Origin: Loxodes magnus
Taxonomy: Eukaryota > Ciliophora > Karyorelictea > Loxodida > Loxodidae
NCBI GenBank assembly: GCA_946699065.1
Contig: CAMPDV010000022.1
Span: forward strand, 248,001 to 312,000
Reading direction: 5' to 3'
DNA length: 64,000 bases
The notes beneath the pieces were generated by a model that worked only from the letters and a program-made list of their open reading frames with translations, did no database searches and was not told the origin of the DNA. This document shows positions 966-54,061 of the stretch, piece by piece. Position numbers and translations under genes: made by a program. How positions within the stretch are numbered: the first letter of the stretch is position 1; each line of letters begins with the position of its first letter.

Positions 966-3900
966 CTCATTTAAAAGAATAAGTGATTAAAATTGAAAAA
1001 ATATAATCTTTATTAGGTTATTCTAAATTCATAAAACTGAAAATTAGAGGAAAAAGTTTTATCTTTAAATCTAATTTTATCAGCAAAAATAAAAAATTAT
1101 CTTATATGAGAGATCTTTAAACATATAATGTGATAGTTTATTAATTTGAACTACATCTTTAGAAATAAAAGATATATCTTTTTACTTTATATATCCTTGC
1201 TTTATTAACTAAACATAATTGCAACAAGTTATTTAAATTTCATTCTATAGATCTAAGTGTTATTAAAAATAAAAGTTTATTATTTATAAAAATTCCCTTG
1301 CTTGCATACATTATTAGTTGATTATAATTATTTATTTGGTATGGGAATATAATAATTTAAATACATCCAAAGATATAGAGAATCAATACATGTTCATATA
1401 AAAAATAGTAACTTTTAGAATTCTTAAGAATGCTAGCATTGATATTATTTTAATTTTAAGTGTTTCTTCTATTTTTTAAATGGTATTAATACTTTTTATA
1501 TCCTTTGCTTATATATTTAAGAGTATAAATAGCAATTTAGAGTTATATTTAAAAGTTCTAATGATATATAATTAAAAAAGTCTTTAGTTATAATAGGCTT
1601 ATAGTATATTTGTATTTATAATGTAAATTATTATTGCAATACTTATTATTTTAAAAGTAAATAGTAATTGTATTCTCACTAACGCCTTTTGTAGTATAGC
1701 GAATAGGCATTCCTATCTTGGAACGAATTACATTCAGTTACCTAAGAATCGTTAAAAGTATACCACTAATCATCTACTTTTATATGAGCTAAATAATGTC
1801 CACCTCTTGAACTTCCTAAATGAACATTGACTCCATATAAATCATAAACAGTAGGTTTATTATAATTTTTTGGAAGAAATTCCTTTATATCAAATACCTC
1901 TGGATATTAAACTGATTCTTCATTTTTCTAAATAAGCTATCCAATTTGCTTAAATCTCTTGAGATAAACTATAAAAATTTCTGGAACTTTGTATAAATTT
2001 AAATTTTAACTTCCATCAACATGAACTTTACATGTTTTGCAATAAAATTAATTCTCTTAATTTAAATACTCAGTTAATTCAAAAAATCTAAAGCAGTCAG
2101 TTAAATGGAGTAAGGAATCAATTTTACGATATTGTATTTATCTTTGTTAAGCTTTTCTTATAAGAAAATTGGATTCTTGATTTTAAATGGCATTCTTAAT
2201 ATTTACTTTTATTCTGAAATTACTTATTTATAATAATTATTCTACTGTTATGTTTTCATTTTATTTTAAAAGATGACCATTGATACAACCACAGTATGAA
2301 TTGCAAAAGTAGCAATAGTATTATGACATTTCGGCTCTTTGTTGTTATTCACCATTGAATCCTAGATTCTATCCATTTAGTCACATGACTATTGAATTAC
2401 TTTTAGGTTCTGGAATAATAGTTATATTATATAGATCTTCATAGCTTTCATTTTATTTTTCTGGTAGTAGTAAATACTAATAATAAACATATCTATAAAG
2501 CTCATTTGCCTTCATCTACTTTCTCAAATCTACTATCTCAGGTACTCCTAATCTTATTCTTTATTAATTATCTTTAGAATAATTAGAAGCTGCTTCTTAT
2601 TAAAACTCAATTAAAGTTCTATAAACAGCTTAGTTAAATGGGTAAACTTCATAAGCGAGTACTTAATCTTGATTAATATCCATAATATTTTAGCTGAGGG
2701 GCTTAAATGATTAGATTTAGATTTATTAGTCAGATTATATGAATATTATGTCTGAAATACTATTTTACTAAATATTCTTTCTTATTTCATCTAGTAGTTT
2801 CTATGATTATTTTGTAATTAGTATTTCAAATCCTAAAGTTTGTGATTTTTATTCGAATATTAAAGGAATAAAGGTTACTTATACTTTTGTAGTTTTATTA
2901 GGAATTTCAACGCAGAATAATGCAAATGGATCAAATATTACTGAGTCCTTTTTGCATGTGCCACATCTTAGGGTAGATTTACTTTATCCATGCATTAAAT
3001 CTACTATTTTAGAGTCATTTCTCTTTAGATATCTATCCCAACATTCGAAAGAAACTTCTTCATCGGGTCTTCCATCACTAGGTTTACCTTCTATATATGG
3101 TTTTTTTGTAATTTTATTGACGTCTTCATGTAAAGAGTCAAGTAGGAAATTAATAAACTGCTGAGAATCTGCTTACTAGCCATATTAAAACAGAGATGAA
3201 AATTTAAGCATTTTATTTTAAAAGCTTTTTGTACTATAACTACCTCCTTTTTGCTAATCAAATTTTACTACTAGTTTATAAAATTCTTCAGCTAAAACCC
3301 CTCTAGTTCCAAAGGTATTAGCTACATTTAAATCGTTTCTCCATTAATCTGAAAGAAAGTAATTAAATAAAGGAGGAGTATGTAATAGACACTATAAGCC
3401 GGAATTCATATAGGAAGTATTTCCTAATTTTTCTAATCCTACTAAGCCTTTCTTACCAGTTTATATGCATGAATGATTAAAATCACTTAAAGAGCATTCT
3501 TTTTTGCACCATTATCTGCTACTACAAAAAGGACATTCATACTATATTTCTTCTTATTTACAGTATACACAGCCTGCCAAAATTCAATCTTCTCCTTATC
3601 CTATTATAATAGTTCCTTAAGCAGGAATTGAAGCTTCATTGAAAGTTTATTATAGATGTATAATTTTATCAACAGGAAGCTTATAAATCCTAATTTAATC
3701 AATAGCACTGCTAAATAATTTTAAAATCTACAAATGAGTAATATTCTATTGCAATTTCCAAACATTATAAGGCCTTTATTAAAAGTATTAGTTTATAAAC
3801 TACTAAATGGTTTGCTATTTATTGATGAAACATTTAAAGTATCTTCGGTAGTTTTTTTTAACAAATATTACATGTAATAAACTAATTTACGACATATATT

Positions 3901-6900
3901 AGTTTATATTACTACTTTAAGGCACTACTTCTGGAGAAATTACAAACTCTTGAGAAGTATAAACACTTTATTTCAAAAATGTATATATTTCCTAGGTTAA
4001 AGAATTCTAATTGATGAACTAATTTTACTAACTTTAATTGCTAAAATCTCCTAACAATTAATTTTAATTTTCATCACTTGCCTCAAAGATTAAATGAAAT
4101 TCAAGTTCTTTTTTACTAATTTTTTTGTTATTGGTTGAGTTATTGAAAATAGAGCTAAATTTATTTTAAAATTAATTCTAATAATTCTTAATCTAGTTAG
4201 CTATGTTTTAATTTAGATTATTTAATACTTAATTCTAATATTATTGAATAAATTCTATTTATTTTTTACCATATTATTCAAGCATTTACTCCTAAGTAAG
4301 TTAAATTTACTATAAAATATTGAAACTGGTTTACTAAAATGCTTATTAATTATTCGATTTTATATGCTCATCAATTTAAGCCCCAATATGGGCTTTTATT
4401 TGTTCTAGTTTCTATTAAAGTTCTTTATTTATTTTTTATTCTAAATTCTATTTTAATTCTTAAATTTTTTGAGTAAGTAACATATTTTCTTCTATTTTTA
4501 TTTGCTTCTCTACATTCTAATTTATATCATAATTTTATTCTTAAAAGTTTGGCTAAGTTTAATTTAAAATTTATTTTATTTCCAATTCAAACCTTTATTA
4601 TAAATTATCTTGTAATTCCTTTGAGAGAATTTCTTCTTGTTTGCCTTTCATTGAATCTATTAAAGATTATGCTAAATTATATGATTTTTAATTTATACTA
4701 TCTATATAATTTAATGCTTAAGTTTATATGCTTTCTTAAAGCTGCTACTAAGTATTTTTTATTTCTGTCATTCTATAATTATAAAGATCTTTGAAGTAAT
4801 TATTACATTAAATTTCAAATTTGTTTATTATTTGATTTTGAATTTTATATAAATTTTTTTCATATTCTTATCTTTTTTCCTTTTATTCTTAATATAAAGT
4901 TTAATTAGTTAGTTTTTTAATTTTAGAGTTGTATTTCTTAACTATATTATATGCTTATTTTTTTAATTCCTCGAAAATTTCTTCTTTATCTTTATTTTTA
5001 TACAGCTTTTCGATTTCCTAAGCTTTTTAATTTATTTTAGGATTAGTTTCTTACTGGATTTCATTTTTTTTATCTTAAAACTATTATTTAATTTAGTCAT
5101 TAGCTTACTTTTAAATTCTATGTTATAAATCTTTTATATTTTAATATATAGTTTGATTTAGCTATTCATTAAGTTAAGTTACTTAGTAATTGTAAATAAG
5201 TTCCTAATTATCTTATTCCTTTTGATCTATAAAGTTTTAAAGTTATTAAATTTCCTTTTAAAAAGTTTCTTCTTGCTTGTTTTTGAAAACATTATATATT
5301 TCTTAATTTTTTTAGTTAATTTCATAATTTTGTCTATTCTAAATTTCTTAAATTAACTATTAAATTTGAAGATTAATTTCTTTTTGTTTTTATTAGTTTA
5401 TCTATTAGCTCAATACTTTTGTTTATTTTTCAATTTCTAATTATTCTTAGCCTTAAATAGAATCATTTATTTGCTTTAGTTCTTAATCTAATAAACTTAT
5501 TTTAGAATCTTCAATTTACTTCTGAAGTTCCTCAAGCTAACTACTATAATCTTGGTAAATTTAATCTTATAAGTTTTTAAAGTTTTCTAGAGATGAAGCA
5601 TCAATATTTTATTGCTAGATGTTTAAAAATGAGTTACAAAGTACCAAGAGAGCATTAGTTTTATCTTAAACCGATAATTGAAATAATTAAACCAGATACT
5701 ATAATAATATTTAGCTTTTTTCTATATAAAGAGGCTATAAATCTTATTCAGAAAATTGTGAAATTTACTCTTAATTATACTATTAGTTTGGGTTTATTTA
5801 ATCGAAAAAGCATGGCTATTCTTACTTTAATTAGGTAATTAAGATCTATATTTTCATTACTTAGCTAAAAAGTTATTTTTAATCTTAAATTTGTTAAACA
5901 AGAATCTAACTCTAAATTTATAATTATTCACTTAAAGAATCCTATAATAATAATTATTTAATTTATTCTTAACTAAAAATCTATTCTTATATTTCCTCTG
6001 AGCTTTCTAAAGCTTATTATAATTATAACAGTGGATTAGATTCTTTTTATATTTAAATTTCTTCAGCTTTCTTCATATCTTTCTCGATTAATTTTGATAA
6101 TTTTATAATTTATAATTTATTTTTTTACACTTCTATTATGTTAATTTTAATTTTTTACATTATTTCCTTTTATAATTTTTCTAAGTCCTTCAATAATTAG
6201 ATTTATATTTATTTGCTATATTATTTTTATATCTAGGCTTTTTGCTATTAAAGTTAATTTTTCTGTTTACTTTCAATTTCTTTTTCTTTTATTATTTTTT
6301 AGCTTTAATATTTTTGTTCAAATTCTTTTTTTATGTTCTAAATTAATTAATCTGTCTTTCTTGTTTTATTGTCTTCAAATTACTGATTAATTTAATAGTT
6401 TATTTATTCTTATTTTTCATTTTTCTCATTTTACATAATATTTTATATTTTTATTTTTTCTTCTTCTATTTGTTATTTTTAATAACCTTAATAAAGCTTT
6501 TTAATACTTTCTTGCAGTCTTTACAATTTTAGTTAGACTTCTGTTTGGGTTAAATTCTCGATTTAATTCATTACTTTCGATTTAGCTGTTAATTTAAAAT
6601 TTTCTTCTTCATTTTTTTACTGAACTAATATTATTTCTATTTGCTCTTCTATCAAAGTTTTAGCTTTCATACTTTCTGATTTTTCAATTTCTATTTATTT
6701 CTCTTATTCTTTATCTTAAGCCTCTTTTCACATTATTTCTCTAAATTATTACTATTCTTATTTTATTTTTCTTTATATATCTTCGGTTATTTTTTATTTT
6801 ATTTCTTTTATTTTTTGCTTATAAAAGTTTATTGCCTAATTATTTAAATCATTAAAGATAGTTTCTTTCTGCTTGTCTATTATTTGCTTTATTTATTCTT

Positions 6901-12433: not shown

Positions 12434-15400
12434 TCATTGATGCTAAGCTTCTCGTTATCTTTATTAGTTGTTAGATTCTAGTAATTCTGATTTGATTCTT
12501 CCTGGTCTTGGACAGAGAGTTTTTTATACTTAGCATTCTTCGCAGTTAGTTTTCATTATATCTTAACCTTAAAAATCACTTCAACATCAACAACCTTGAG
12601 CATGATAATGATTTCCATGTGCCATAACTGGCTATATATATTTATTAAAACTTACACTTCTTTTTGTTTCACAGCAAAAGTTTCAATCTTTTTTGCATTT
12701 AAAGCATTATACATGTTGACATCCAGTACCTAAAGTTACAGAATCTTTGCAATAAGGACATTATCGTATATCAAAGCCATCTTTCATTAAAGCTTCTCTT
12801 ATCTAAAGAGGGTTAAGGTGAAAATTAAATTACCTTTATAACTGATTATACACATTCACCTTAGTGAGATTTCTCAAGACAGCTTGAGCAAAATTGATAT
12901 TTACAACTAACGCAGGTTAGAGTCACTTATTCATGAGGAATTTATCAAAATTCTTTACAACGTGGATTAGGGCATTTTCTAAATATTAAATACTTACTTT
13001 ATGTCTTCTATTCCTTCCATTCTTAAAATACAAAGCTTATTAAATCACTAATCACCTATCACTTCTTTTATTATCTCATAATTATCATTTCTTTGAAACC
13101 ATGCTGTAAGAGGTACTCCACAAACTTTATTATTCTATCAGAAAGTACATATTAAATCATTTTCAAGTACTTTTCTTTATTTTATTTGTTCTATTATATA
13201 TTGATTTAAGCAAGAGCAACATATTCTATGATCACAATAAAGAGTTTTGATCTAATCTATATTAAATTAATTCTAGCATATATAGCACTCAAAAAATAAC
13301 TGGTTCTATTCTACATATCTAGGCTTTACTAACTCTCCTTAAAACTTTTCTTCTTCTGCTGCTTTTTTGCTACTTTCAAATTTCTAAAGTGTTTATAACT
13401 GATATTTTAATTCTTCTTATGAATATCCTTTTGCATTCTAATAATCCTAACCAGTAAACTATTTATTACAGTTCTGAGCCATGCAGTTGAAAGTATTATA
13501 CTAGAAATTTTCCATACATTTTTCAAGACATTTTTTATGAAATTGATGCTAGCACTCTATCAGTCGGTAGTATTCATCTTTTTCAACAGTACAAATGGGC
13601 ATACATTTTCTCGTTTAGCTAGTTTACTTAGTACTAAGAGAAGGTTGATTAGGAGTTATTGAACTTTTTTGCTAACTTTAATATAATTTCTACTTTCTTT
13701 ATTCTCTTTGCTAATAGTACCTTGTAAATATTTCATCCCCATAAATCTAGTAAATATCATTTTCTGTATATTGAGTGTGACATTGTAGGCAACAAAGACT
13801 TTCTCCTCCTTTTTCACCTGGAAGAATTAAAATTTTTTCTTCTGTGTAATATGATATTTGCTACTGCAAGCAAATTCTGCAAAATCCGTGTTAACACTAT
13901 AGTTATAAAAGATCTTAAACTTGCATGCATTTAAAACATCAGAGGACTTTAATCTATTAATAATTTTAAAAATTAACGAAGATATCAACTGCAATTCGAT
14001 GAAATTATTAAGCTTTTCTATCCTCTAAAAAATAATTTAGTCCTTATAGTTTTTCTAATAAAAAAAGCTGGAAATTCTTTATACCATTATCATCGAAATT
14101 TTGCTGTTTAATGGAATCCTCGAATTAAAAAAGTTAATTTCTTCATCTTTCATCATCTGATATAAATGTCTAAAGCCATTACTGGTAGTCTTATAGAGAT
14201 TGTGCCGTTTTTAACTGATCATAAAGTTGTTAAATTCTATCAAATTATAAACTAAACAAAACTTAAATTTATTTGTTAAAATCTTACTACTATTATAGCT
14301 TTTGACGCAAGTATTCCTGAGAATTATTCAGGGAATTTTAAAGTAGTTCTATTTATTGATCTTTAATCAGGTTTTATTCTTTATTTTCTCTTTTCTTTTC
14401 TTTTTCTAATTCTGTCATTTATTGATGCAAATTTTACTATATTTTCTAATTTTCCAATGATAAACTCTGTTTCTATGCTTCTAGAGTTCTTATTTCTTCT
14501 TTGAGCTTGCTATTTTACTCTTAAATATTTTTTTTATTTTATTACATTTCTTATTAATTATTAATAAAATCTTGGTTTTATGCTTATAATATTTGCATTT
14601 ATTCTTAAAGATTTTCTATCTATTAATCTTTAATCAGGCTTTACTCTTGCTTTTCTTTTTCTAATTCTGTCATTTATTGATGCAAATTTTACTATATTTT
14701 CTAATTTTCCAATGATAAACTCTGTTTCTATGCTTCTAGAGTTCTTATTTCTTCTTTGAGTTTGTTATTTTACTCTTAAATATTTTTTTTATTTTATTAC
14801 ATTTCTTATTAATTATTAATAAAATCTTGGTTTTATGCTTATAATATTTGCATTTGTTCTTAAAGATTTTCTATCTATTAATCTTTAATCAGGCTTTACT
14901 CTTGCTTTTCTTTTTCTAATTCTGTCATTTATTGATGCAAATTTTACTATATTTTCTAATTTTCCAACGATAAACTCTGTTTCTATGCTTCTAGAGTTCT
15001 TATTTCTTCTTTGAGCTTGCTATTTTACTCTTAAATATTTTTTTTATTTTATTACATTTCTTATTAATCATTAATAAAATTCTTCTTCTATTGTAATAAA
15101 CTGTTTACTTATCCCTAAAGCTGTTAGATTTATTTTTGTAATTTCTCTTGTTTTAATGTAAGTTATTCTTTTTCTTAATTATAATTCTTGTTTTATTCTT
15201 ACAAATTTTATAGATTTAATTAAAGTTCTTTTCTTTAATTTATTTATTATTATAAATTGTGTTTTGCTTCTTTCTTCTTTATACTTTAATTTAGCAACTT
15301 TTGCTACAACTGTTGTATTATTTCTTATGTCTATTCAGCTGTTTTTATCTTTTGAATGTATAGTGGATTTTATTTATAATTTTCTTAGAACTTTGTTGGT

Positions 15401-17310
15401 ATATTATTCCAGTAGGTTTCATAACATCCTTTGGAGATATCAAATCCATCTATAAAAATTATTTCTCCAGTGTATAAAATTCCATACTATCTTTGCCATT
15501 GTAAAATGTAAATAGCTGGCAGCATTATATTTTCAAGTCCATGTATTACTTAAGTTTTTTAAGGGTCTGAAGTTGAGTTAAGGACTTCAATACAAAATGC
15601 GACTCTTAACTCTTCTACTAAGCTGTCAATTATAAGTTACAATAATGCCTCATTTATTTTCTTTTATTCCTTATTTAATAAACATTATATCACATTCTCA
15701 TGGTCAGCTACTTAAGCTTTATGATTTTAGATATAATTAACTACGATTAGTTTTAAAGTTCAAATCATATAAGTTTCAAAGTTATCTTTATTTTACATAA
15801 GATAACTCTCAAGCATCTTAGCAGCTTCAGAATGTTTGCTTTATTTTTTAAGACTTTTAAGTTAGCCTAGAAATGTAGAAATTGAACTTATTATTGATTT
15901 ACTTGTTACTTATTTATTATCTATCTACAAAGCTTAATCTTAAAAGAGCTCTTGATTGCTGTAATTAATTTTATTTATAAATTCATCTAACTCTTATTAA
16001 GGTGTAGTTCTTCTTATTAGATGCTCTAGAAAACCAACAGCTACAGCTCTGAAGAAATTATTTCCGTCCTCTTTTATTTATCTTCATGCTACATACTTGT
16101 TTGATAATTCTAAAACCCTTCCCAAAATGTTAGAATCAGAACTATGTATTTTGATGAGTTATTATATACTTTTTCTACATTCTTTGTTTGGAAATTCCTA
16201 GTTTATACTTTATTACTGATTAAAGGCAAAGCTCTTTCCTTAATAATTCATTTTTGGATAGTTTTACTCTTTAGTCTCTTGTGGAACAGTCTAATCGTTT
16301 AATAATTTTAAAGCTTGATTTTGATTTTCCTGGCAGGCAAATTTTTCTAAGCTTAAATTTTAAGTTTTTAATCCTTTTGTAAATATATTTATAGAGCTCG
16401 CTTATTTTTGGATGGTTTATTCCTTTTAAGATTTAGTATTATCTTAATTTTCTTAAAGCTCTTCAACAAATTTTTGAGAATAGACTTATTTATTTTAATT
16501 TCTTTCTAATCTATTGGACGATGGTCTATTTCCAACTTCTGAAGTTGGAGTTTTCTATGAGTCATTATTTTGTAAATGCAAACCTCTATATGCTTTATTT
16601 GAATATGCTGTTTAACATCTGAAGTTTGAATTTTGATTAGGATTTAAGAAATCTTCCTATACTGTATTTTTCTGTTACTATTGAATTTAGATATTTTACT
16701 GCTTTGTTTAAAATGACTAAGGGATAATAAGCTCTTTACTATTCTTATTTTATATCATTAAGTTTTTATCGTATTCTTACTAGTTCAATTTAAAATCTCT
16801 AGTTATTCTATTTTATTAATCCACAATATTATTTCTATTACTTTTCTATACAAAAAAATTTTATAAGGATTAACTATTTCCATTAGTCTGAGAGCTTTAG
16901 ATAATTTTATCCTGAGAAAATGGATTTTGTTAATTTTTGCGATTTATATTAATCTAAGAGCTTTAAATATTAAAATCCTGATTATATAATTCTTATTAAG
17001 ACTCATCAATCTCAGTTTCCTAGATTTATTCACAGATACTAAATTTACTTTTTTTCTCTTGAGATACTTTTTACTTAGTAGATTATGATTATGTACTATA
17101 TTTTTAGTCTGTCTACTTACAGTTCTCTGAGGATTAATCCAATAAATCTTATAATTCTTGAAATGGAACAATATCTTATTACTGTTTTGGGAAGTTTAAA
17201 TTCCGCTTTTATTATCCTTTCTATTAGACAAATTAACCTTCTTAATTGATTAAGGAAGACTATTACTATATATTTTGTGGCTATTAGAATTAAAGTTTAG
17301 CGTTTTGCAT
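12434..17310 (-). CDS. Pseudo-otubain / RING / RBR-type E3 ubiquitin ligase fusion, about 1608 residues
   Basis: From ATG 17310 to TGA 12434, two introns (12979-12997 and 12803-12833) bring the length to exactly 1609 codons. Residues 1-400 are Gln/Ser/Asn-rich and disordered. Residues ~400-620 resemble otubain (peptidase C65): motif EDGNNFFRAVAVGFLEHL near 414-431, and RQYGILYTGEIIFIDGF near 607. In active otubains these are DGNC and HY.ILY, so Cys is Asn (about 418) and His is Gln (about 608). A Gln-rich coiled coil with an 85-residue tandem repeat fills ~640-1200. A RING-like finger follows near 1236, then RING1 from Cys 1342, an in-between-RING (CPNPRC...CVSC) and RING2 (CPYCKDSV, near 1501). 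RBR ligases pass ubiquitin through a RING2 cysteine. The architecture suggests ubiquitin sensing coupled to ligation. Confidence 0.8.
12803..12833 (-). other. 31-nt intron of the RBR gene
   Basis: On the minus strand this stretch begins GTAATTT and ends CTTTAG. Removing it joins the in-between-RING to RING2 in one frame (VIK then IREALMKDGFD). Reading through it shifts the frame by one. Confidence 0.8.
12979..12997 (-). other. 19-nt intron of the RBR gene
   Basis: On the minus strand it reads GTAAGTATTTAATATTTAG. Splicing restores the in-between-RING Cys pair (CPNPRC) downstream of RING1. With the 31-nt intron, the whole gene becomes an exact multiple of three. Confidence 0.8.
14359..15080. 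repeat. 255-bp tandem repeat, about 2.8 copies, inside the RBR gene
   Basis: Units are spaced exactly 255 bp (for example the shared 10-mer at 14421, 14676 and 14931) and nearly identical. The first unit has a 12-bp length difference. The period is 85 codons, so the array stays in frame and lengthens the coiled coil (unit contains motifs such as KLKEEIRTLEAQKQSL). High identity points to recent expansion or homogenisation. Confidence 0.9.
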
Positions 17311-40193: not shown

Positions 40194-41097
40194 AAAAGAA
40201 TGAGTGATTAAGATTGAAAATACGTTCGATCTTTATAAGGTTTTTCTTAATTAATAAAACTGAAAAAGGAGAAATAAAGCACTTGTCTTTAAATCTAATT
40301 TTATCAGCAAAAAAATATTTAATCTAGTCTGAGAGATCTTAAAGCATAAAATGCTATAATTTATTAATATGAACTATCTATCTAGAAAATAAAATGTATT
40401 CTCTCTTTATTACCTTTAAAAAATTATAAAGCTAATAATTTAGCTTAAGAAAATATGATTAACAAACATAAATAAAAATAAGACTTAAGATAATCATTTA
40501 GTTTAGAATATAAACCAAATGATAAAGCTAAATTAAAAGCTAATAAGAAAATGCATTATTGGCTTAGACGGGAATATAATTACCATGATTTTATATTCTA
40601 AATTTGCAGAATAAACTAAGCTTAAACAAGTTATTTTAATATATATCCATAGAACTAAGTATTATTTAAAAAATGACTTAAATTAATACTTATCACTTAT
40701 AAAAGGTAATTTACTTGCTTGTAATTATTTCTTTATTAGTTGATTATAATTATTTATTTGGTATGGGAATATAATAATTTAAATACATCCAAAGATATAG
40801 AGAATCAATACATGTTCATATAAAAAATAGTAACTTTTAGAATTCTTAAGAATGCTAGCATTGATATTATTTTAATTTTAAGTGTTTCTTCTATTTTTTA
40901 AATGGTATTAATACTTTTTATATCCTTTGCTTATTCATTTAAGAGCACAAATAGCAATTTAGAGTTATATTTAAAAGTTCTAATGATATATAATTAAAAA
41001 AGTCTTTAGTTATAATAGGCTTATAGTATATTTGTATTTATAATGTAAATTATTATTGCAATACTTATTATTTTAAAAGTAAATAGTAATTGTATTC

Positions 41098-44000
41098 TCA
41101 CTAACGCCTTTTGTAGTATAGCGAATAGGCATTGCTATCTTGGAACGAATTACATTCAGTTACCCAAGAATCATTAAAAGTATACCACTAATCATCAACT
41201 TTTATATGAGCTAAATAATGTCCACCTCTTGAACTTCCTAAATGAACATTGACTCCATATAAATCATAAACAGTAGGTTTATTATAATTTTTTGGAACAA
41301 ATTCCTTTATATCTAATACCTCTGGATATTAAACTGGTTCTTCATTTTTCTGAATACTATATCCTGTTTGCTTAAATCTCTTGAGATAAACTATAAAAAT
41401 TTCTGGAACTTTGTATAAATTTAAATTTTTAGTTCCATCAACATGAACTTTACATGCTTTGCAATAAAATTAATTCTCTTAATTTAAATACTCAGTTAAT
41501 TCTAAAAATCTAAAGCAGTCAGTTAAATGGAGTAAGGAATCAATTTTACGATATTGTATTTATCTTTGTTAAGCTTTTCTTATAAGAAAATTGGATTCTT
41601 GATTTTAAATGAAATTCTTAATATTTACTTGTATTCTGAAATTACTTATTTATAATAATTATTCTACTGTTATGTTTTCATTTTATTTTAAAAGATGACC
41701 ATTGATACAACCACAGTATGAATTGCAAAAGTAGCAATAGTTCTGAGACATTTCGGCTCTTTTTTGTTATTCACCATTGAATCCTAGATTCTATCCATTT
41801 AGTCACATGACTATTGAATTACTTTTAGGTTCTGGAATAATAGTTATATTATATAGATCTTCATAGCTTTCATTTTATTTTTCTGGTAGTAGTAAATACT
41901 AATAATAAACATATCTATAAAGCTCATTTGCCTTCATCTACTTTCTCAAATCTACTATCTCAGGTACTCCTAATCTTATTCTTTATTAATTATCTTTAGA
42001 ATAATTAGAAGCTGCTTCTTATTAAAACTCAATTAAAGTTCTATAAACAGCTTAGTTAAATGGGTAAACTTCATAAGCGAGTACTTAATCTTGATTAATA
42101 TCCATAATATTTTAGCTGAGGGGCTTAAATGATTAGATTTAGATTTATTAGTCAGATTATATGAATATTATGTCTGAAATACTATTTTACTAAATATTCT
42201 TTCTTATTTCATCTAGTAGTTTCTATGATTATTTTGTAATTAGTATTTCAAATCCTAAAGTTTGTGATTTTTATTCGAATATTAAAGGAATAAAGGTTAC
42301 TTATACTTTTGTAGTTTTATTAGGAATTTCAACGCAGAATAATGCAAATGGATCAAATATTACTGAGTCCTTTTTGCATGCGCCACATCTTAGGGTAGAT
42401 TTACTTTATCCATGCATTAAATCTACTATTTTAGAGTCATTTCTCTTTAGATATCTATCCCAACATTCGAAAGAAACTTCTTCATCGGGTCTTCCATCAC
42501 TAGGTTTACCTTCTATATATGGTTTTTTTGTAATTTTATTGACGTCTTCATGTAAAGAGTCAAGTAGGAAATTAATAAACTGCTGAGAATCTGCTTACTA
42601 GCCATATTAAAACAGAGATGAAAATTTAAGCATTTTATTTTAAAAGCTTTATGGACTATAACTACCTCCTTTTTGTTAATCAAATTTTACTACTAGTTTA
42701 TAAAATTCTTCAGCTAAAACCCCTCCAGTTCCAAAGGCATTAGCTACATTTAAATCGTTTCTCCATTAATCCGAAAGAAAGTAATTAAATAAAGGAGGAG
42801 TATGTAATAGACACTATAAGCCGGAATTCATATAGCAAGTATTTCCTAAGTTTTCTAATCCTACTAAGCCTTTCTTACCAGTTTATATGCATGAATGATT
42901 AGAATCACTTAAAGAGCATTCTTTTTTGCACCATTATCTGCTACTACAAAAAGGACATTCATACTATATTTCTTCTTATTTACAGTATACACAGCCTGCC
43001 AAAATTCAATCTTCTCCTTATCCTATTATAATAGTTCCTTAAGCAGGAATTGAAGCTTCATTAAAAGTTTATTATAACTGTATAATTTTAATAACAGGAA
43101 GCTTATAAATCCTAATTTAATCAATAGCACTGTTAAATAATTATAAAACCTACAAATGAGTAATATTCTATTGCAATTTCCAAACATTCCTAGTGCTTTA
43201 CTAAAAGTATTAGTTTATAAACTACTAAATGGTTTGATATTTATTGATGAAACATTTAAAGTATCTTTAGTAGTTCTTTTTAACAAATATTACATGTAAT
43301 AAACTAATTTACGACATATATTAGTCTATATTACTACTTTAAGGCACTACTTCTGGAGAAATTACAAACTCTTGAGAAATATAAACACTTTATTTCAAAA
43401 ATGTATGTATTTCCTAGGTTAAATAATTCTAATAGACGAACTAATTTTACTAACTTTAATTGCTAAAATCTCCTAACGATTAATTTTAATTTTAATCACT
43501 TGCCTCAAGCATTAAACGAATTTGGAGTTCGTCTTTTTTTATTTTTTTGTTATTGGTTGAGCTAAAGAAAATAAAACTAAATTTATCTTAAAATTAATTC
43601 TAATAATTCTTAATCTAGTTAGCTATGTTTTAATTTAGATTATTTAATACTTAATTCTAATATTATTGAATAAATTCTATTTATTTTTTACTATAATATT
43701 CAAGCATTTACTCCTAAGTAAGTTAAATTTACTATAAAATATTGAAACTGGTTTACTAAAATGCTTATTAATTATTCGATTTTATATGCTCATCAATTTA
43801 AGCCCCAATATGGGCTTTTATTTGTTCTAGTTTGTATTAAAGTTCTTTATTTATTTTTTATTCTAAATTCTATTTTAATTCTTAAATTTTTTGAGTAAGT
43901 AACATATTTTCTTCTATTTTTATTTGCTTCTCTACATTCTAATTTATATCCAAATTTTATTCTTAAAAGTTTGGCTAAGTTTAATTTAAAATTTATTTTA

Positions 44001-47000
44001 TTTCCAATTCAAACCTTTATTATAAATTATCTTGTAATTCCTTTGAGAGAATTTCTTCTTGTTTGCCTTTCATTGAATCTATTAAAGATTATGCTAAATT
44101 ATATGATTTTTAATTTATACTATCTATATAATTTAATGCTTATGCTTTTGCTTAAGTTTATATGCTTTCTTAAAGCTGCTACTAAGAAATTCTTATTTCT
44201 GTCAATCTAGAATTATAAAGATCTTTGAAGTAATTATTACATTAAATTTGCAATTTGCTTATTATTTTATTTTGAATTTAATTTAATTAGTTTTTATATT
44301 ATTATTTTTTTTTCTTTTATTCTTAATATAAAGTTTAATCAGTTAGTTCTTTAATTTTAGAGTTGTATTGCTTAACTATATTATATGCTTATATTTTTAA
44401 TTCCTTGAAAATTTCTTCTTTATCTTTATTTTTATACAGCTATTCGATTTCTTCAGATTTTTAATTTATTTTATGATTATTTTCTTACTGGATATAATTT
44501 CTGAACCTTTAAAGCTATTATTTAATTTAGTCATCAGCTTACTTTTAAATTCTATGTTATAAATCTTTTATATTTTAATTTTTAGTTTGATTTAGCTATT
44601 CATTAAGTTAAGTTACTTAGTAATTGTAAATAAGTTCCTAATTATCTTATTCCTTTTGATCTATAAAGTTTTAAAGTTATTTAATTTCCTTTTAAAAAGC
44701 TTCTTCTTGTTTGTTTTTGAAAACATTATATATTTCTTAATTTTTTTAGTTAATTTCATAATTTTGTCTATTCTAAATTTCTTAATTTAACTATTAAATT
44801 TGAAGATTTATTTCTTTTTGTTTTTATTAGTTTATCTATTAGCTCAATACTTTTGTTTATATTTCAATTTCTAATTATTCTTAGCCTTAAATAGAATCAT
44901 TTATTTGCTTTAATTCTTAATCTAATAAACTTATTTTAGAATCTTCAATTTACTTCTGAAGTTCCTCAAGCTTACTACTATAATCTTGGTAAATTTAATC
45001 TTATAAGTTTTTAAAGTTTTCAAGAGATGAAGCATAAATATCTTATTGCTAGATGTTTAAAAATGAGTTACAAAGTACCAAGAGAGCATTAGTTTTAACA
45101 TAAACCGATAATTGAAATAATTAAACTAGATACTATAATAATATTTAGCTTTACTCTATATTAATAGACTAAAAATCTTATTCAGAAATTTTCTTTTATA
45201 AAGTATCTATTTCTTAATAAAATTGTGAAATTTACTCTTAATTATATTATTAGTTTTTATTTATTTAATCGAAAAAGCATGGCTATTCTTAATTTAATTA
45301 GGTAATTAAAATCTATATTTTCATTACTTAGCTAAAATGTTATTTTTAATCTAAAATTTGTTAAACTAAAATCTAACTCGAAAGTTAAAATTTTTAACTT
45401 AAAGAATCCTATAATGTTAATTATTAAATTTAATCTAGTATTTATGCTTAACTAAAAATCTATTCTTATATTTCCTCTTTAATACCTTCAGATTTTGAAG
45501 AATACAGCTAAAAAATAGTTTCTTTTACTTATTCTTACAAGTTATTTTCTGTACTTAAAGTCTATTCTTTATCTTTATTTTCAACTGCTTCTTCTGTTTA
45601 ATTTGTTGCTGAACTTTCTATTGTTTATTATGATTATAGCATTGAGTCAGTTTCTTTTACTTATTCTTACAAGTTATTTTCTGTACTTAAAGTCTATTCT
45701 TTATCTTTATTTTCAACTGCTTCTTCTGTTTAATTTGTTGCTGAACTTTCTATTGTTTATTATGATTATAGCATTGAGTCAGTTTCTTTTACTTATTCTT
45801 ACAAGTTATTTTCTGTGGTTAAAGTCTATTCTTTATCTTTATTTTCAACTGCTTCTTCTGTTTAATTTGTTGCTGAACTTTCTATTGTTTATTATGATTA
45901 TAGCATTGAGTCAGTTTCTTTTACTTATTCTTACAAGTTATTTTCTGTGGTTAAAGTCTATTCTTTATCTTTATTTTCAACTGCTTCTTCTGTTTAATTT
46001 GTTGCTGAACTTTCTATTGTTTATTATGATTATAGCATTGAGTCAGTTTCTTTTACTTATTCTTACTAGTTATTTTCTGTACTTAAAGTCTATTCTTTAT
46101 CTTTATTATCAACTGCTTCTTCTGTTTAATTTGTTGCTGAACTTTCTATTGTTTATTATGATTATACCATTGAGTCAGTTTCTTTTACTTATTCTTACAA
46201 GTTAATTTTCTGTGGTTAAAGTCTATTCTTTATCTTTATTTATCAACTGCTTCTTCTGTTTAATTTGTTGCTGAACTTTCTATTGTTTATTATGATTATA
46301 CCATTGAGTCAGTTTCTTTTACTTATTCTTACTAGTTAATTTTCTGTACTTAAAGTCTATTCTTTATCTTTATTATCAACTGCTTCTTCTGTTTAATTTG
46401 TTGCTGAACTTTCTATTGTTTATTATGATTATAGCATTGAGTCAGTTTCTTTTACTTATTCTTACAAGTTATTTTCTGTGTACTTAAAGTCTATTCTTTA
46501 TCTTTATTTTCAACTGCTTCTTCTGTTTAATTTGTTGCTGAACTTTCTATTGTTTATTATGATTATACCATTGAGTCAGTTTCTTTTACTTATTCTTACT
46601 AGTTAATTTCTGTACTTAAAGTCTATTCTTTATCTTTATTTTCAACTGCTTCTTCTGTTTAATTTGTTGCTGAACTTTCTATTGTTTATTATGATTATAG
46701 CATTGAGTCAGTTTCTTTTACTTATTCTTACAAGTTATTTTCTGTGTACTTAAAGTCTATTCTTTATCTTTATTTTCAACTGCTTCTTCTGTTTAATTTG
46801 TTGCTGAACTTTCTATTGTTTATTATGATTATAGCATTGAGTCAGTTTCTTTTACTTATTCTTACTAGTTAATTTCTGTACTTAAAGTCTATTCTTTATC
46901 TTTATTATCAACTGCTTCTTCTGTTTAATTTGTTACTGAACTTTCTATTGTTTATTATGATTATACCATTGAGTCAGTTTCTTTTACTTATTCTTACTAG

Positions 47001-48650
47001 TTAATTTCTGTGGTTAAAGTCTATTCTTTATCTTTATTTTCAACTGCTTCTTCTGTTTAATTTGTTACTGAACTTTCTATTGTTTATTATGAGTATTGCA
47101 TTAAATTTTCTTTATTTAAATTTTTAATTTCCTCTAATTTTCTTGCATTTTGTTCTGATACTTCTTTTTTTTTAATATTTTTTTAAAAATTTTTTTATTT
47201 TTCTATTATGTTATCGCTAATTTTTTGCATTATTTCCTTTTGAAGTTTTTCTAAGTCTTTTAATATTTATATTTTATTTATTCGCTATATTATTTTTATG
47301 ACTTGTCTTTTTGCTATTGAAGTTAATCTTTTTGTTTACTTTCAATTTCGTTTTCTTTTATTATTTTTTAGCTTTAATATTTTTGTTCAAATTCTTTTTC
47401 TATGTTCTATATTAATTAATCTGTCTCTATTTTTTTGTTGTCTTCAAATTATTGATTAATTTAATAGTTTATTTATTCTTATTTTTCATTTTTCTCTTTT
47501 TACAACATATTTTTTATTTTTATTTTTTCTTCTTCTATTTGTTATTTTTAATAATCTTAATAAAGCTTTTTAAAACTTTCTTGCAGTCTTTACTATTTTA
47601 GATAGACTTCTGTTTTCTTTAAATTCTCGATTTAATTCATTACTTTAGATTTAGCTGTTAATTTAAACTTTTCTTCTTCATCTTTTTACTGAACTAATAT
47701 TATTTCTATTTGCTCTTCTATCAAAGTTTTAGCTTTCATACTTTCTGATTGTTCAATTTCTATTTATTTCTCTTATTCTTTATCTTAAGCCTCTTTTCTT
47801 ATTTTTTCTTAAATTATTACTATTCTTATTTTATTTTGTTTTATATATCTTCGGTTATTTTTTATTTTATTTCTTTTATTTTTTGCTTATAAAAGCTTGA
47901 TGCCTAATTATTTTAATCATTAAAGATAGTTTCTTTCTGCTTGTCTATTATTTGCTTTGATTATTCTTCCAATAGATTTTATAGATTTAAACACATATTC
48001 TGCAATTCTTAGTTTAATTCATTCAATGTCTAATGCTAAAAATTAGGCAATTAGTTTTGCATTTCTTATTGTTTTTCATACATTTAGTTCTAAAAATTCA
48101 TATTTAAATCTAGTTGTGTACTATGCTCTTATATAACTAAGCTTTAAAATTAGTTCCATTCTTATTGAGAGAGCATGTCGACTTCATTTTTTAGAATTTC
48201 CAAGATTTAGTTCGAAACTTCTTCAATTTTCTAGTTGATTTGTTCACTATAAAAAGTTTCTTATAAGACTTTAACTTATTATAATTTCTAGAGTTATTCT
48301 TCACTGACTTACTCTTGCTATTTCTTTTCATTCACTTCTTTTCTTTCTTCTAAGTTTAGCTATTACTATTATTCTTAGCCTTAATTTCAAGACATCTCAT
48401 GTATATCTTTCTGTAGCTCTATACTTTTATAATTATTAGGTAATAAACGGAATGTTTAATCTCCTGTTTTATTTTCTTTCTTTTATTCCAAACTCACACA
48501 ATCTTAACTGCTACATATACTACAGCTCTGCTTTTTTAAATTATCTAATTTTATCCTTTAATTACTCTAAATAGATTGACAGCTGCACTTTCATTAAAAG
48601 GTTGATTTTTGGCTTGAGGGGATTTAAGTATAAGGGCAAATTCAATCCAT
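41098..48650 (-). CDS. MYND-finger ubiquitin C-terminal hydrolase, copy B, catalytic Cys present, phase changes in the coiled coil
   Basis: It has the same design as copy A: start MDWICPYTQIP at 48650, cysteine-rich N-terminus, long coiled coil, MYND-like finger and USP domain ending YYKRR before TGA 41098-41100. The Cys box here reads LGNTCYMNSGLQ, so the nucleophile is present, and the His box is intact. It should be an active deubiquitinase if expressed. The start and the USP domain are not in the same phase: the span is 7553 bases, not a multiple of three. Length changes within the 132-bp array (units of 132, 133 and 134 bp) account for part of this. Short introns, assembly error in the array or real decay are the options. 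Because TAA and TAG are sense, a shifted frame meets few stops. Confidence 0.75.
45518..47095. repeat. 132-bp minisatellite, about 12 units, only in copy B
   Basis: Unit starts are spaced 132 bp at first (45609, 45741, 45873, 46005, 46137) and then 132-134 bp up to 47068. The units are almost identical, with small indels around the TTTTCTG and ATTATCAAC positions. On the minus strand the best frame gives a 44-residue unit with Glu, Gln and Thr (parts: QTIESSATNQTEEAVEN and EQTLSTENNLQEQVKET). Copy A has unrelated sequence at this place (about 5990-6130), so the array arose, or was lost, after the duplication. Confidence 0.95.
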
Positions 48651-51185: not shown

Positions 51186-54061
51186 TCAATACTGCGGTTC
51201 GATTCCAGCATTTTTCTCGTAATTCTACATTTCAAAAAGACCGATTAACTTGTCTGAGTTTTGAAGCTTTTTCACCATTTTTAGCCAGATCTGAATTAAA
51301 AACTTACATCATAATCTTCTTTTAATCTCCTGAAGTTTGAAGGAAATTAGAATGCCAAATATTCTTCCTTCCATCCATCAACCCAATCATAAAGATCAAC
51401 TTGCTGAAACTCTTCCACCATTTATTTTATTTAAGCAGGAGAATCATAATTTATAGGTTCCATGCTAGTTTTATCCTTTAAAGACTTAGTGATTTGTTCC
51501 AATTAAGTCAAGTCACTTGCCTGCAATTATGTAGAGCTGTTTTGTATTCATTCAATCGAATTTTACAGATTTTGCTGAACCTACCTATAAAAATTGTTCT
51601 ATAAATAAAAAACTGCTAAATTCAGAGCCATTTTTGCTAGAGGTACAATCTCAGTTAATTTGCTCTGATACGCATTCTCGTTAATCTAGGAACATAACCT
51701 TAAACATAATAGCTTGCAGCACTCCTAAATAACACTTAGATAGTAATCCCTTTTATCCCCAGTTTCTATAGCAGTTCCTTATAATTATATTTGCTAATTT
51801 AAGTTAAAATCATCTTGCCTTAATAGGTAGCAAAAGGCTTAATATGCTTATTCTCACTATTTACCTATCATAAGCTTTATAATTTCTAATCCAATTTTTG
51901 CAGTCAGGACTAACTGGCTATATTGTTAGTAAAAATGTCCAAGCTAAACTTCATTATAAGGTTAAATCTCCAAATTTACTGGAGCAACGTTTTTCTCAAA
52001 CTTACTTATTTATTGCAATATCGCTTAGTACAAAGTTTCACCTTTACTCAACTCCTTTAACTTCCTCCCAGTTACTTAGTTTATGCATTGATCTAAAATA
52101 GTCCATCTTGAAAGGAAAAACTGCAAGTTTACACACAGAAATATAGAGAAGTTAGTAAGTTCCTATAAGCATTAGATTTTCTCGTAATAATCAGTATTGT
52201 GTTTATCTTATAGGTATTATTATGTTTAGAATTATAAATCGTTAAATCTTTTAATATACATCTCGCTTATTTAGTTCACTTTTATTTAGATCTATTTTTC
52301 ATTCACTTAGTCACTTATTTTTATGCTATCTTAGTATATTTATTCCTTTATATGGCTAGGAATTTTACTTTCATAGAGTTCAAAGAAAGAACTCTTCTCT
52401 AAAATTTTAGCTAAATCTAGCTTTATGTAAAATAGACATTAAGCTGATGTCTAACTGTTTCCTCCTACTACTTCGGAAAATACATTTTCTTGGTTGACTT
52501 TCGTTATATGAGTGTCGAAGTATTTTTTTCATTAGTTCTAAGAAAAATCTTTTATAAAGGCATAATAGTTTCCATTTAGGATATTTCCATCGTGTATTAG
52601 TACTGAATGCAATACATACTTCTCTTAACATAACTAAGGATCTTCAAATGTTTAATTTAGTTCTTTTTTTAAAGCTTCAAACTATTCATTCAGTGATTGC
52701 ACCGAATATTTTACCTTACTTCCATACTCTTACAATACTTACAAAGCTTCATTTATTTGTTCTGGCGCTCTTTATGTTGCTACCCTTGATATATCAAGCT
52801 AACCTTCTTACTAATTACTCTATTAGCTCTATTATCGCTAAAGGAAATTAGAGACTAAGCGTAATATTTCGTCTAAAGGTAAGTCGGTTTTTTAGAATTT
52901 CATAAGCTAATCTAAAGTTTGCTCCAGTTTTGTTTTCTATTTATGTAGTTCTAGCATTTTCTACCTTAGTTCTAGAGCTTTTTGTTTGTTCTGAAGCAAA
53001 AACCTATCTGCATATATTTCTAAGGGGAAGTGAAAAGCATTTGCCAGTTTACGAATTTTCTAAGGATCTTTACTATCTACTCTTTACAATTAAAAGCTTA
53101 AAACTGGAGGAAGGATTTTTATCCAGTTTTCTCTATTAGCCTACGTCTCTAATCCTTTAGGTGTTTGCCACTAAATATTTTCAAAAACATAATCATCCCA
53201 GGCTGAGTACAAATCTTTGTTTCTTTCTATATCAAGCTTTATAGCCCCAAAATCAACCTCTGAATTCACTTCAACTTGCTTACCTTCTTCCTAATAAATA
53301 ATATTCTAAAGCATTTGTCCAAAAAAGATGTTCTAGATATTTCCCCTTACTTAATGAGGCACTACAAATTACTTTTAACTTGGATCTTATGCACTTACTT
53401 AATCATTATAGTTAGGAAGTTGAACTTATCCTATCTAAGCATCAGCCAATATTTTAACACCTTCATCTAATCTCTCTAAGAAATTCATATTGTAGCTTGT
53501 TACAACTTTTTAATTCTCAATCCTCATTTGATTTCCTTTACTGTCTACTATATTTTAAATTAATTAAGTTGGATTGACAAACTTTCTTTCACTCAACGTC
53601 ATCAACGCAAAAAGCTACTTACTCTATTAAACCAGCTATACACAAGCTTATTATCTCTTATCAGTTAAGTTTTGAACTACTTCTGGTGCTTATCAAATTT
53701 GATCTAATAACTCTGGGATTGTAAAATATATCTACAACAGAGAGTTCACATAACAAGTGTTTCTAGTATTTTTTAGTCCTACTGGTATTCCTTATTCTCT
53801 AATAATTTTCTCATTTATTACTTCACCAAAGAATTAAGAAAGCTCAACTGGAGCAACTGGTACCTGTGCATTTTGACCAGGAGGTATCTGTTGCTAAGAA
53901 CCTGTCACTTATTGATTTAGATTCTAAGTTAATCACTCTAAAGTCTATTCAAAATCATTATTATTATTCTAAAGAGCTAGCACAACCTATTACTCATTCC
54001 AAACATTTTTTCCTAACTCCAATAATTATTTTATTAGTTCCTTATTTGGTTATTGAGCCAT
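51186..54061 (-). CDS. UBA-USP protein of the USP25/USP28 family, catalytic His replaced by Asn, 952 residues
   Basis: From ATG 54061 to TGA 51186-51188, one 17-nt intron (51291-51307) makes exactly 953 codons. Residues ~8-46 form a UBA-like three-helix motif (LLELGKNVWNEQQVVLALQ, ending LEWLTQ). The USP domain starts with VGLKNTRNTCYVNSLLQIYF (Cys103) and includes WIKILPPVLSFQLQRVD, FHFPLEIYADRF, a long helical insertion, and YVLHSVLIHDGNILNGNYYA followed by KKYFDTHITKVNQENVF. Spacing and motifs match USP25/USP28. The expected GHY of the His box is GNY (Asn498), so hydrolysis should be lost or very weak. A helical C-terminal extension (~560-952) resembles the long tail of that family. A conserved Trp of the His-box region is encoded by TGA (52529-52531), supporting the code. 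Confidence 0.85.
51291..51307 (-). other. 17-nt intron
   Basis: On the minus strand it reads GTAAGTTTTTAATTCAG. Splicing changes the C-terminus from a short run to IWLKMVKKLQNSDKLIGLFE and ends at TGA 51186-51188, with the gene length then divisible by three. Confidence 0.75.

Follow-up and report, generated by a model that had tools for sequence, protein, structure and literature searches.

The OTUB-RBR gene and its predicted protein

The window analysed here is a stretch of 64,000 nucleotides of the Loxodes magnus macronuclear assembly (C22:248001-312000; contigs are given C numbers and loci L numbers), and paralogues were searched in the whole assembly of 705,730,643 bases. The minus strand of the window was found to contain a gene that encodes an otubain-like (OTUB) domain, a coiled-coil linker, two RING-like fingers and a RING1-IBR-RING2 (RBR) ubiquitin ligase module. 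The features of the gene are as follows.

12434..17310, minus strand: whole gene, 1608 codons and stop (spliced translation, TAA/TAG as Q, TGA as W)
17310-12998, 12978-12834 and 12802-12434, minus strand: three exons
17310-17308 and 12436-12434, minus strand: start ATG and stop TGA
12979..12997, minus strand: intron 1, 19 nucleotides, GTAAG...TAG
12803..12833, minus strand: intron 2, 31 nucleotides, GTAATT...TTTAG
16171..17310, minus strand: N-terminal Q/N-rich tail, residues 1-380
15331..16170, minus strand: otubain (Peptidase_C65) domain, residues 381-660
16057..16068, minus strand: DGNN motif, Asp415 kept, Asn418 at the catalytic Cys position
15487..15489, minus strand: Gln608 at the catalytic His position (RQYGILY)
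13951..15330, minus strand: linker, residues 661-1120, coiled coil at least over residues 661-1010
14395..15080, minus strand: tandem repeat inside the coiled coil, 255 bp x 2.7 (85-residue unit)
13668..13938 (borders approximate), minus strand: extra RING-like finger a, family hidden Markov model (HMM) E 1e-22
13441..13605 (borders approximate), minus strand: extra RING-like finger b, family HMM E 2e-23
13081..13293, minus strand: RING1 of the RBR (family HMM, ARIH1 profile alignment, Pfam scan)
12852..12974, minus strand: IBR finger (Pfam IBR)
12584..12760, minus strand: RING2, with Cys1514 (codon 12721-12719) in GCQHVQC

With the standard code, no open reading frame of 80 amino acids was found in the gene region, and a variant code is therefore needed. 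Loxodes magnus is described as using translation table 27, in which UGA is Trp or stop, and as having a macronuclear assembly of 706 Mbp and introns with a mean of 19.3 bp, 93% of them being ≤25 bp (PMC11441545). Intron 2 is long by the standards of this genome. In a guided splice search of 14 paralogous loci, intron 1 lay at the identical residue in 12, and 13 shared the position of intron 2; a third intron, at residue 1544, was present in 11 of them and missing from the C22 genes. The spliced translation bore out the limits 12434-17310, for which an earlier note on this DNA had described one exact-length open reading frame. Both parts do share a single frame, but it lies on the minus strand and is interrupted, with two introns and ten in-frame TGA codons; the observation is thus real, with corrections. 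A further 24-nucleotide intron near 16.1 kb, a candidate found by eye, was dropped as column 409 was Trp, Tyr or Phe in 20 of 20 loci searched, with a pattern that itself demanded one of these three residues. Three more predicted introns (one in L028 and two in L032) lie in low-complexity stretches and were not relied on.

The excised OTUB domain matched the Pfam Peptidase_C65 profile (PF10275) with an E value of 3.2e-15 and 56.7 bits, above the cut-off of 24.3. The profile check named in the earlier note thus succeeded with the excised domain but not with the whole protein, for which Peptidase_C65 was not listed at E ≤ 0.1. The match stops at profile position 202 of 243, short of the His, so that the assignment of the His column comes from the alignments to the PDB chains and the family. 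A phmmer search of the PDB gave OTUB2 (E 2.1e-5) and OTUB1 (E 4.4e-5), a profile of 18 members of the domain matched OTUB1 with an E value of 8.6e-30, and all 18 members matched PF10275. In the OTUB2 and family alignments, the Asn and Gln occupy the catalytic Cys and His columns of OTUB1/2 and of the live paralogues. The otubain homology and the loss of both residues (Asn418 and Gln608) were therefore confirmed. The likeness to OTUB1 and OTUB2 (Peptidase C65, OTU superfamily) extends over the whole domain, with the motif Asp and the D-G-N...R-A residues kept, whereas here the Cys is Asn, the His is Gln, and a coiled coil and RING/RBR fingers follow in one chain. The motif Asp (Asp415 here) was kept in every surveyed OTUB domain that covers the site. 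Judged by its residues, the predicted domain is a pseudo-otubain, not an otubain protease.

The Pfam IBR model was matched in the whole protein (E 3.7e-7) and in the RBR segment (E 1.8e-8). A profile of eight RBR members matched ARIH1 with an E value of 2e-9, from RING1 to the FCC of RING2 and with the catalytic Cys in register; these matches agree with the full RING1-IBR-RING2 set noticed earlier. The Pfam scan of the RBR segment gave no RING2-specific model, and the RING2 call rests on the ARIH1 alignment. One RING-like finger had been seen before RING1, but the family HMM found two. The zinc-ligand columns were invariant in the eight aligned members, except for the fourth-site Cys of RING1, which was Asp in L041. 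The catalytic Cys of RING2 was present in 14 of the 15 OTUB-RBR members and was substituted by Phe in L035. The order of the fingers, the zinc ligands and the catalytic Cys in G-C-x-H resemble those of ARIH1/HHARI and other RBR ligases, whereas RING2 carries FCC-E instead of the FCWVC of ARIH1, and the two extra fingers and the otubain domain share the chain here. The predicted protein of the window thus contains RING1, IBR and RING2 with their zinc ligands and a putative catalytic Cys1514, and its ligase half looks competent by its residues. At C214:387371-389477, the IBR-RING2 part is seemingly repeated three times with a spacing of 858 bases.

The linker showed a hydrophobic period of 3.54 over residues 661-1010, with a strength that was reached in 0 of 300 shuffles. 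This period and the tandem repeat agree with the long coiled coil described earlier. Helical periodicity was also tested in residues 1011-1120, and none was found there. The linker of the window gene is 461 residues long, against 277 in L025 and 279 in L026.

In-frame TGA codons and the OTUB-RING family

The ten in-frame TGA codons were read as Trp. Four Trp columns that are TGA in the window gene were found to be TGG in some paralogues: column 409 in L030, L032 and L033, column 517 in nine loci, column 1526 in L028, L029, L033 and L035, and column 1558 in L028, L032, L033, L034 and L036. TGA is coding at these four columns because it is exchanged with TGG among the paralogues. Two of the TGA codons of the window gene, 1056 and 1124, lie between the OTUB domain and finger a. 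All four C22 genes have TGA at codon 1056; of eight RBR genes that are more distant, seven have Phe there and one has Asn. L025 and L026 share the TGA at codon 1124, where L027 has Leu and all eight distant RBR genes have other sense codons. Given the TGG/TGA exchange at the Trp columns and the sense codons at columns 1056 and 1124, the reading of the in-frame TGA codons as stops was rejected.

In all 15 genes (14 further loci and the window gene) the OTUB and RBR parts shared one frame, and six of the loci (L028, L029, L033, L034, L035 and L037) contained no TGA in the linker. In L034 there was no TGA through OTUB, linker, RING1 and IBR, and the first predicted intron lies past the IBR; therefore nothing in that stretch can stop translation. 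Two adjacent genes, with an in-frame TGA between OTUB and RBR as a true stop, would be conceivable under a code in which TGA may be stop or Trp (PMC11441545), and the C22 genes alone cannot exclude this, as L025 and L026 share both linker TGA and L027 shares that at 1056, but the distant genes with sense codons at both columns (as in L027 at 1124), the six loci free of linker TGA and the common frame of all 15 genes make it extremely improbable. As read from the sequences, the single-chain OTUB-RBR fusion is real in the window gene and common to its paralogues.

The genome contains at least 15 OTUB-RBR genes, the window gene included, inside a far larger OTUB-RING family, and the genome search also placed close copies of the window gene on the same contig. 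The window gene is thus one of a family in its genome and not a one-off, and the earlier interpretation holds only in part: the fusion and the double residue loss are real but are shared. Among 51 OTUB domains of 47 loci, copies dropped, 49 had a RING-like finger downstream, in frame in 49 of 49; 38 of these pairs contained no TGA in between and 13 none from the OTUB start to the RING end. Of the two domains that lacked a finger, one was cut by the locus end and the other was the second OTUB of L042 (C37:1063000-1069000, coding 3244-4026), which contains Asn at the Cys position and a kept His, with no RING-like finger found downstream. An OTUB-RING query against the whole genome gave 102 scored matches of 707 candidates, of which 95 reach query residue ≥384; the last RING Cys of the query is residue 373, so these 95 span OTUB and RING. 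Twenty-five of the 102 held no TGA, counted by eye. The counts of the genome searches are lower bounds (150 of 474, 138 of 429, 95 of 632 and 102 of 707 candidates were scored), and they include contigs C167/C285/C296 and C897/C2897, which look like haplotype copies. All 103 RING-like matches lay downstream of an OTUB, a weak count since the loci were chosen around OTUB matches and its background was partial, being the 64-kb window alone. The tree and the OTUB-then-RING count leave out L017, a copy of L031, and L020, a copy of L033. The finger survey leaves out L001, L003, L009-L016, L018 and L019, which coincide with other loci, and L021-L024, which are fragments of loci already in the set.

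Large OTUB-RING arrays were found on contigs C37, C91, C493 and C89, with 35 of the 102 scored matches on C37. In L052, L057, L060, L062 and L064, four to seven RING-like fingers come after the OTUB, all in its frame except the last of L060. A viral origin was also considered and set aside; the OTUB and RBR alignment patterns gave no relative in IMG/VR.

Catalytic loss, phylogeny and constraint

Five of the 15 OTUB-RBR genes (L028, L029, L030, L032 and L041) were found to keep both Cys and His. The other ten lack the catalytic Cys; nine of these also lack the His, which L033 retains. The replacements vary from gene to gene, with Cys changed to N, S or T and His to Q, C, S, D, R or N; Ser occupies the Cys position in six of the ten dead genes and Asn in the window gene. 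Among 34 complete OTUB domains with no detected RBR, 29 keep Cys and His and five lack at least one of them; in some of these loci a far-off RBR may have escaped detection, the downstream flanks being about 1.4 kb in six non-RBR loci and mostly 2-3 kb in L045-L064. The 34 exclude L017, whose flank is too short to show an RBR, and two truncated domains. L035 (C285:33800-40500) is doubly dead, with OTUB Cys changed to Asn, His to Asp and the catalytic Cys of RING2 to Phe.

In a tree of 49 rows, rooted at the midpoint for drawing only, all 15 rows of RBR genes grouped into one clade (100/100). Nested within it, the ten dead OTUB-RBR genes formed a clade of their own (98/96), and one loss can therefore explain all ten. 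The live or dead label required six changes on the tree against a mean of 13 for shuffled labels.

The ratio of nonsynonymous to synonymous substitution rates (dN/dS) was obtained by simple counting from the four C22 genes, which give six non-independent pairs. It was 0.11-0.41 in the OTUB domain, followed by 0.34-0.46 in the linker, 0.30-0.84 in fingers a and b, and 0.31-0.92 in RING1. RING2 showed 0.15-0.38 in five pairs and 0.68 in the sixth (four differences). The 330 codons of the tail ahead of the domain gave 0.67-0.96, which indicates weak constraint. The dead domain is at least as constrained as the fingers. A pseudo-deubiquitinase is characterised by lost catalytic residues and retained constraint, and the predicted domain shows both.

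Outside the dead clade, 39 OTUB columns were conserved at ≥90%, and 20 of them were kept in 9-10 of the 10 dead members. These 20 include the Leu, Glu, His, Leu, Arg and Thr that come soon after the Cys position. In the PGHYD loop, the dead members retained Pro in 0/10, Gly in 3/10, His in 1/10, Tyr in 8/10 and Asp in 1/10.

A proposed docking role for the pseudo-otubain

The sequences suggest an RBR ligase whose pseudo-otubain would serve in cis as a docking module for ubiquitin or E2~ubiquitin, a reading that we hold with moderate confidence. The RBR would accept ubiquitin from the E2 on Cys1514 and hand it to the substrate, as ARIH1-type ligases do, and the coiled coil may oligomerise the ligase. 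The pseudo-otubain would no longer cleave but would still dock ubiquitin or E2~ubiquitin, and this docking may recruit or restrain the ligase in cis. Human OTUB1 is described as binding E2 and E2~ubiquitin non-catalytically, and its C91S mutant still restores UBE2E1 levels whereas T134R fails (PMC6254341). Because OTUB1 without its Cys still controls ubiquitination by binding E2, the inference with the best support would be docking or gating in cis. The earlier idea of a chain-sensing ligase is possible, and E2 or E2~ubiquitin binding of the OTUB1 type may be an equally good lead. A likely history would be a live one-chain deubiquitinase and ligase whose deubiquitinase half was switched off once and was then kept as a binding module.

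Three observations weigh against docking. OTUB1 Thr134, the E2 contact (PMC6254341), falls in a poorly aligned loop, where its position was counted by hand, and E2 binding cannot be read from the sequence for that reason. The stretch ahead of the domain, the site of the OTUB1 N-terminal region that is described as binding ubiquitin (PMC10919355), is weakly constrained here. Finally, 19 of the 39 conserved OTUB columns were not kept in 9/10 dead members, some of them outside the catalytic motifs.

The domain may instead be an autoinhibitory brake, which traps E2~ubiquitin as OTUB1 does and keeps the ligase off until it is displaced. OTUB1 is described as blocking transfer from bound E2~ubiquitin without catalysis, and its C91S mutant as functional in cells (PMC6254341, PMC10919355); the Ser found in six of the ten dead genes is the C91S change, while the window gene has Asn. 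The weak constraint ahead of the domain and the T134 loop, which could not be aligned, count against a brake, and we consider it somewhat unlikely. A structural or substrate-binding scaffold with no ubiquitin contact, kept for dimerisation or partner binding, is unlikely: the columns of the catalytic loop are eroded while other columns persist, and the coiled coil lies directly C-terminal of the domain, but nothing specific points to a new partner, and the sister genes retain Cys and His at the same place, so that ubiquitin contact would be the default inherited function. Continued hydrolysis by the domain, with unusual residues in the active site, is very improbable. USP52, once called a pseudo-deubiquitinase, is described as an active enzyme, and USP39 as a possible further case (PMC10919355), and the motif Asp persists throughout the survey; however, the window gene and eight of the other nine dead RBR genes have neither the Cys nor the His, and replacements that differ from gene to gene are expected once catalysis is no longer selected. 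Decay of the domain or of the entire gene, to which the near-neutral tail and the close copies on the contig could be ascribed, is equally hard to credit beside the low dN/dS of OTUB and, in five of six pairs, of RING2, a frame intact over 1608 codons and a loss common to a deep clade.

Docking by a pseudo-otubain may be compared with known systems. A20 (TNFAIP3) likewise combines a deubiquitinase-type domain with a ligase-type module in a single polypeptide; its OTU domain belongs to another subfamily, and its zinc fingers are of the A20 type, not RING or RBR. Here, in contrast to A20, the deubiquitinase domain lacks the catalytic residues, and no A20-type finger was found among the Pfam matches of the whole protein or of its relatives L034, L029 and L028. 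Pseudo-deubiquitinases share the loss of catalytic residues in a domain kept under selection, whereas here the pseudo-deubiquitinase would sit on a ligase. We know of no otubain example among them. Pseudo-deubiquitinases are given as about 13% of deubiquitinases (PMC10919355).

A literature search over titles and abstract openings, with few subscription journals, found neither OTUB-RBR nor OTUB-RING fusions reported, and the word 'ubiquitin' was absent from the main text of the Loxodes magnus genome paper (PMC11441545). The statement that no otubain-RBR fusion is known therefore stood for the literature searched, but not for this genome, which contains at least 15 such genes, of which five retain both otubain residues, Cys and His. 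What appears to be new is the joining of a putative regulatory domain of a new type to an RBR ligase, within a family of single-chain deubiquitinase-ligase proteins.

Ubiquitin writers and erasers are mostly separate proteins. Tentatively, Loxodes may have a genome-wide system of one-chain eraser-writers; in its RBR branch, a single inactivation would have turned the eraser into an internal sensor of ubiquitin or E2~ubiquitin that gates the writer. Such a system would comprise OTUB-RING, OTUB-multiRING and OTUB-RBR proteins; the OTUB-RING loci scored number about 95, a figure that counts haplotype copies, and many of them lie in tandem arrays. If so, live and dead members may compete for shared substrates, in the manner of a repertoire that has grown for recognition or for proteostasis. 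The clade would show a protease turning into a regulatory module, and its live and dead otubain halves on one RBR chassis are natural pairs that could separate a catalytic from a docking role.

The window was also found to contain genes of USP-type deubiquitinases near the OTUB-RBR gene, at 2381-3409 and 52529-53602 (minus strand) and in 40733-45188, with matches to Pfam UCH at E values of 3.9e-23 and 6.2e-17. The stretch 40733-45188 duplicates 1311-5754, where the first USP gene lies, with 96.4% identity, and a USP-like His box was present at 1816 and 41238. The copied stretch is adjoined by a tandem repeat at 45517-47102, in which a unit of 132 bp (44 codons) occurs 12 times.

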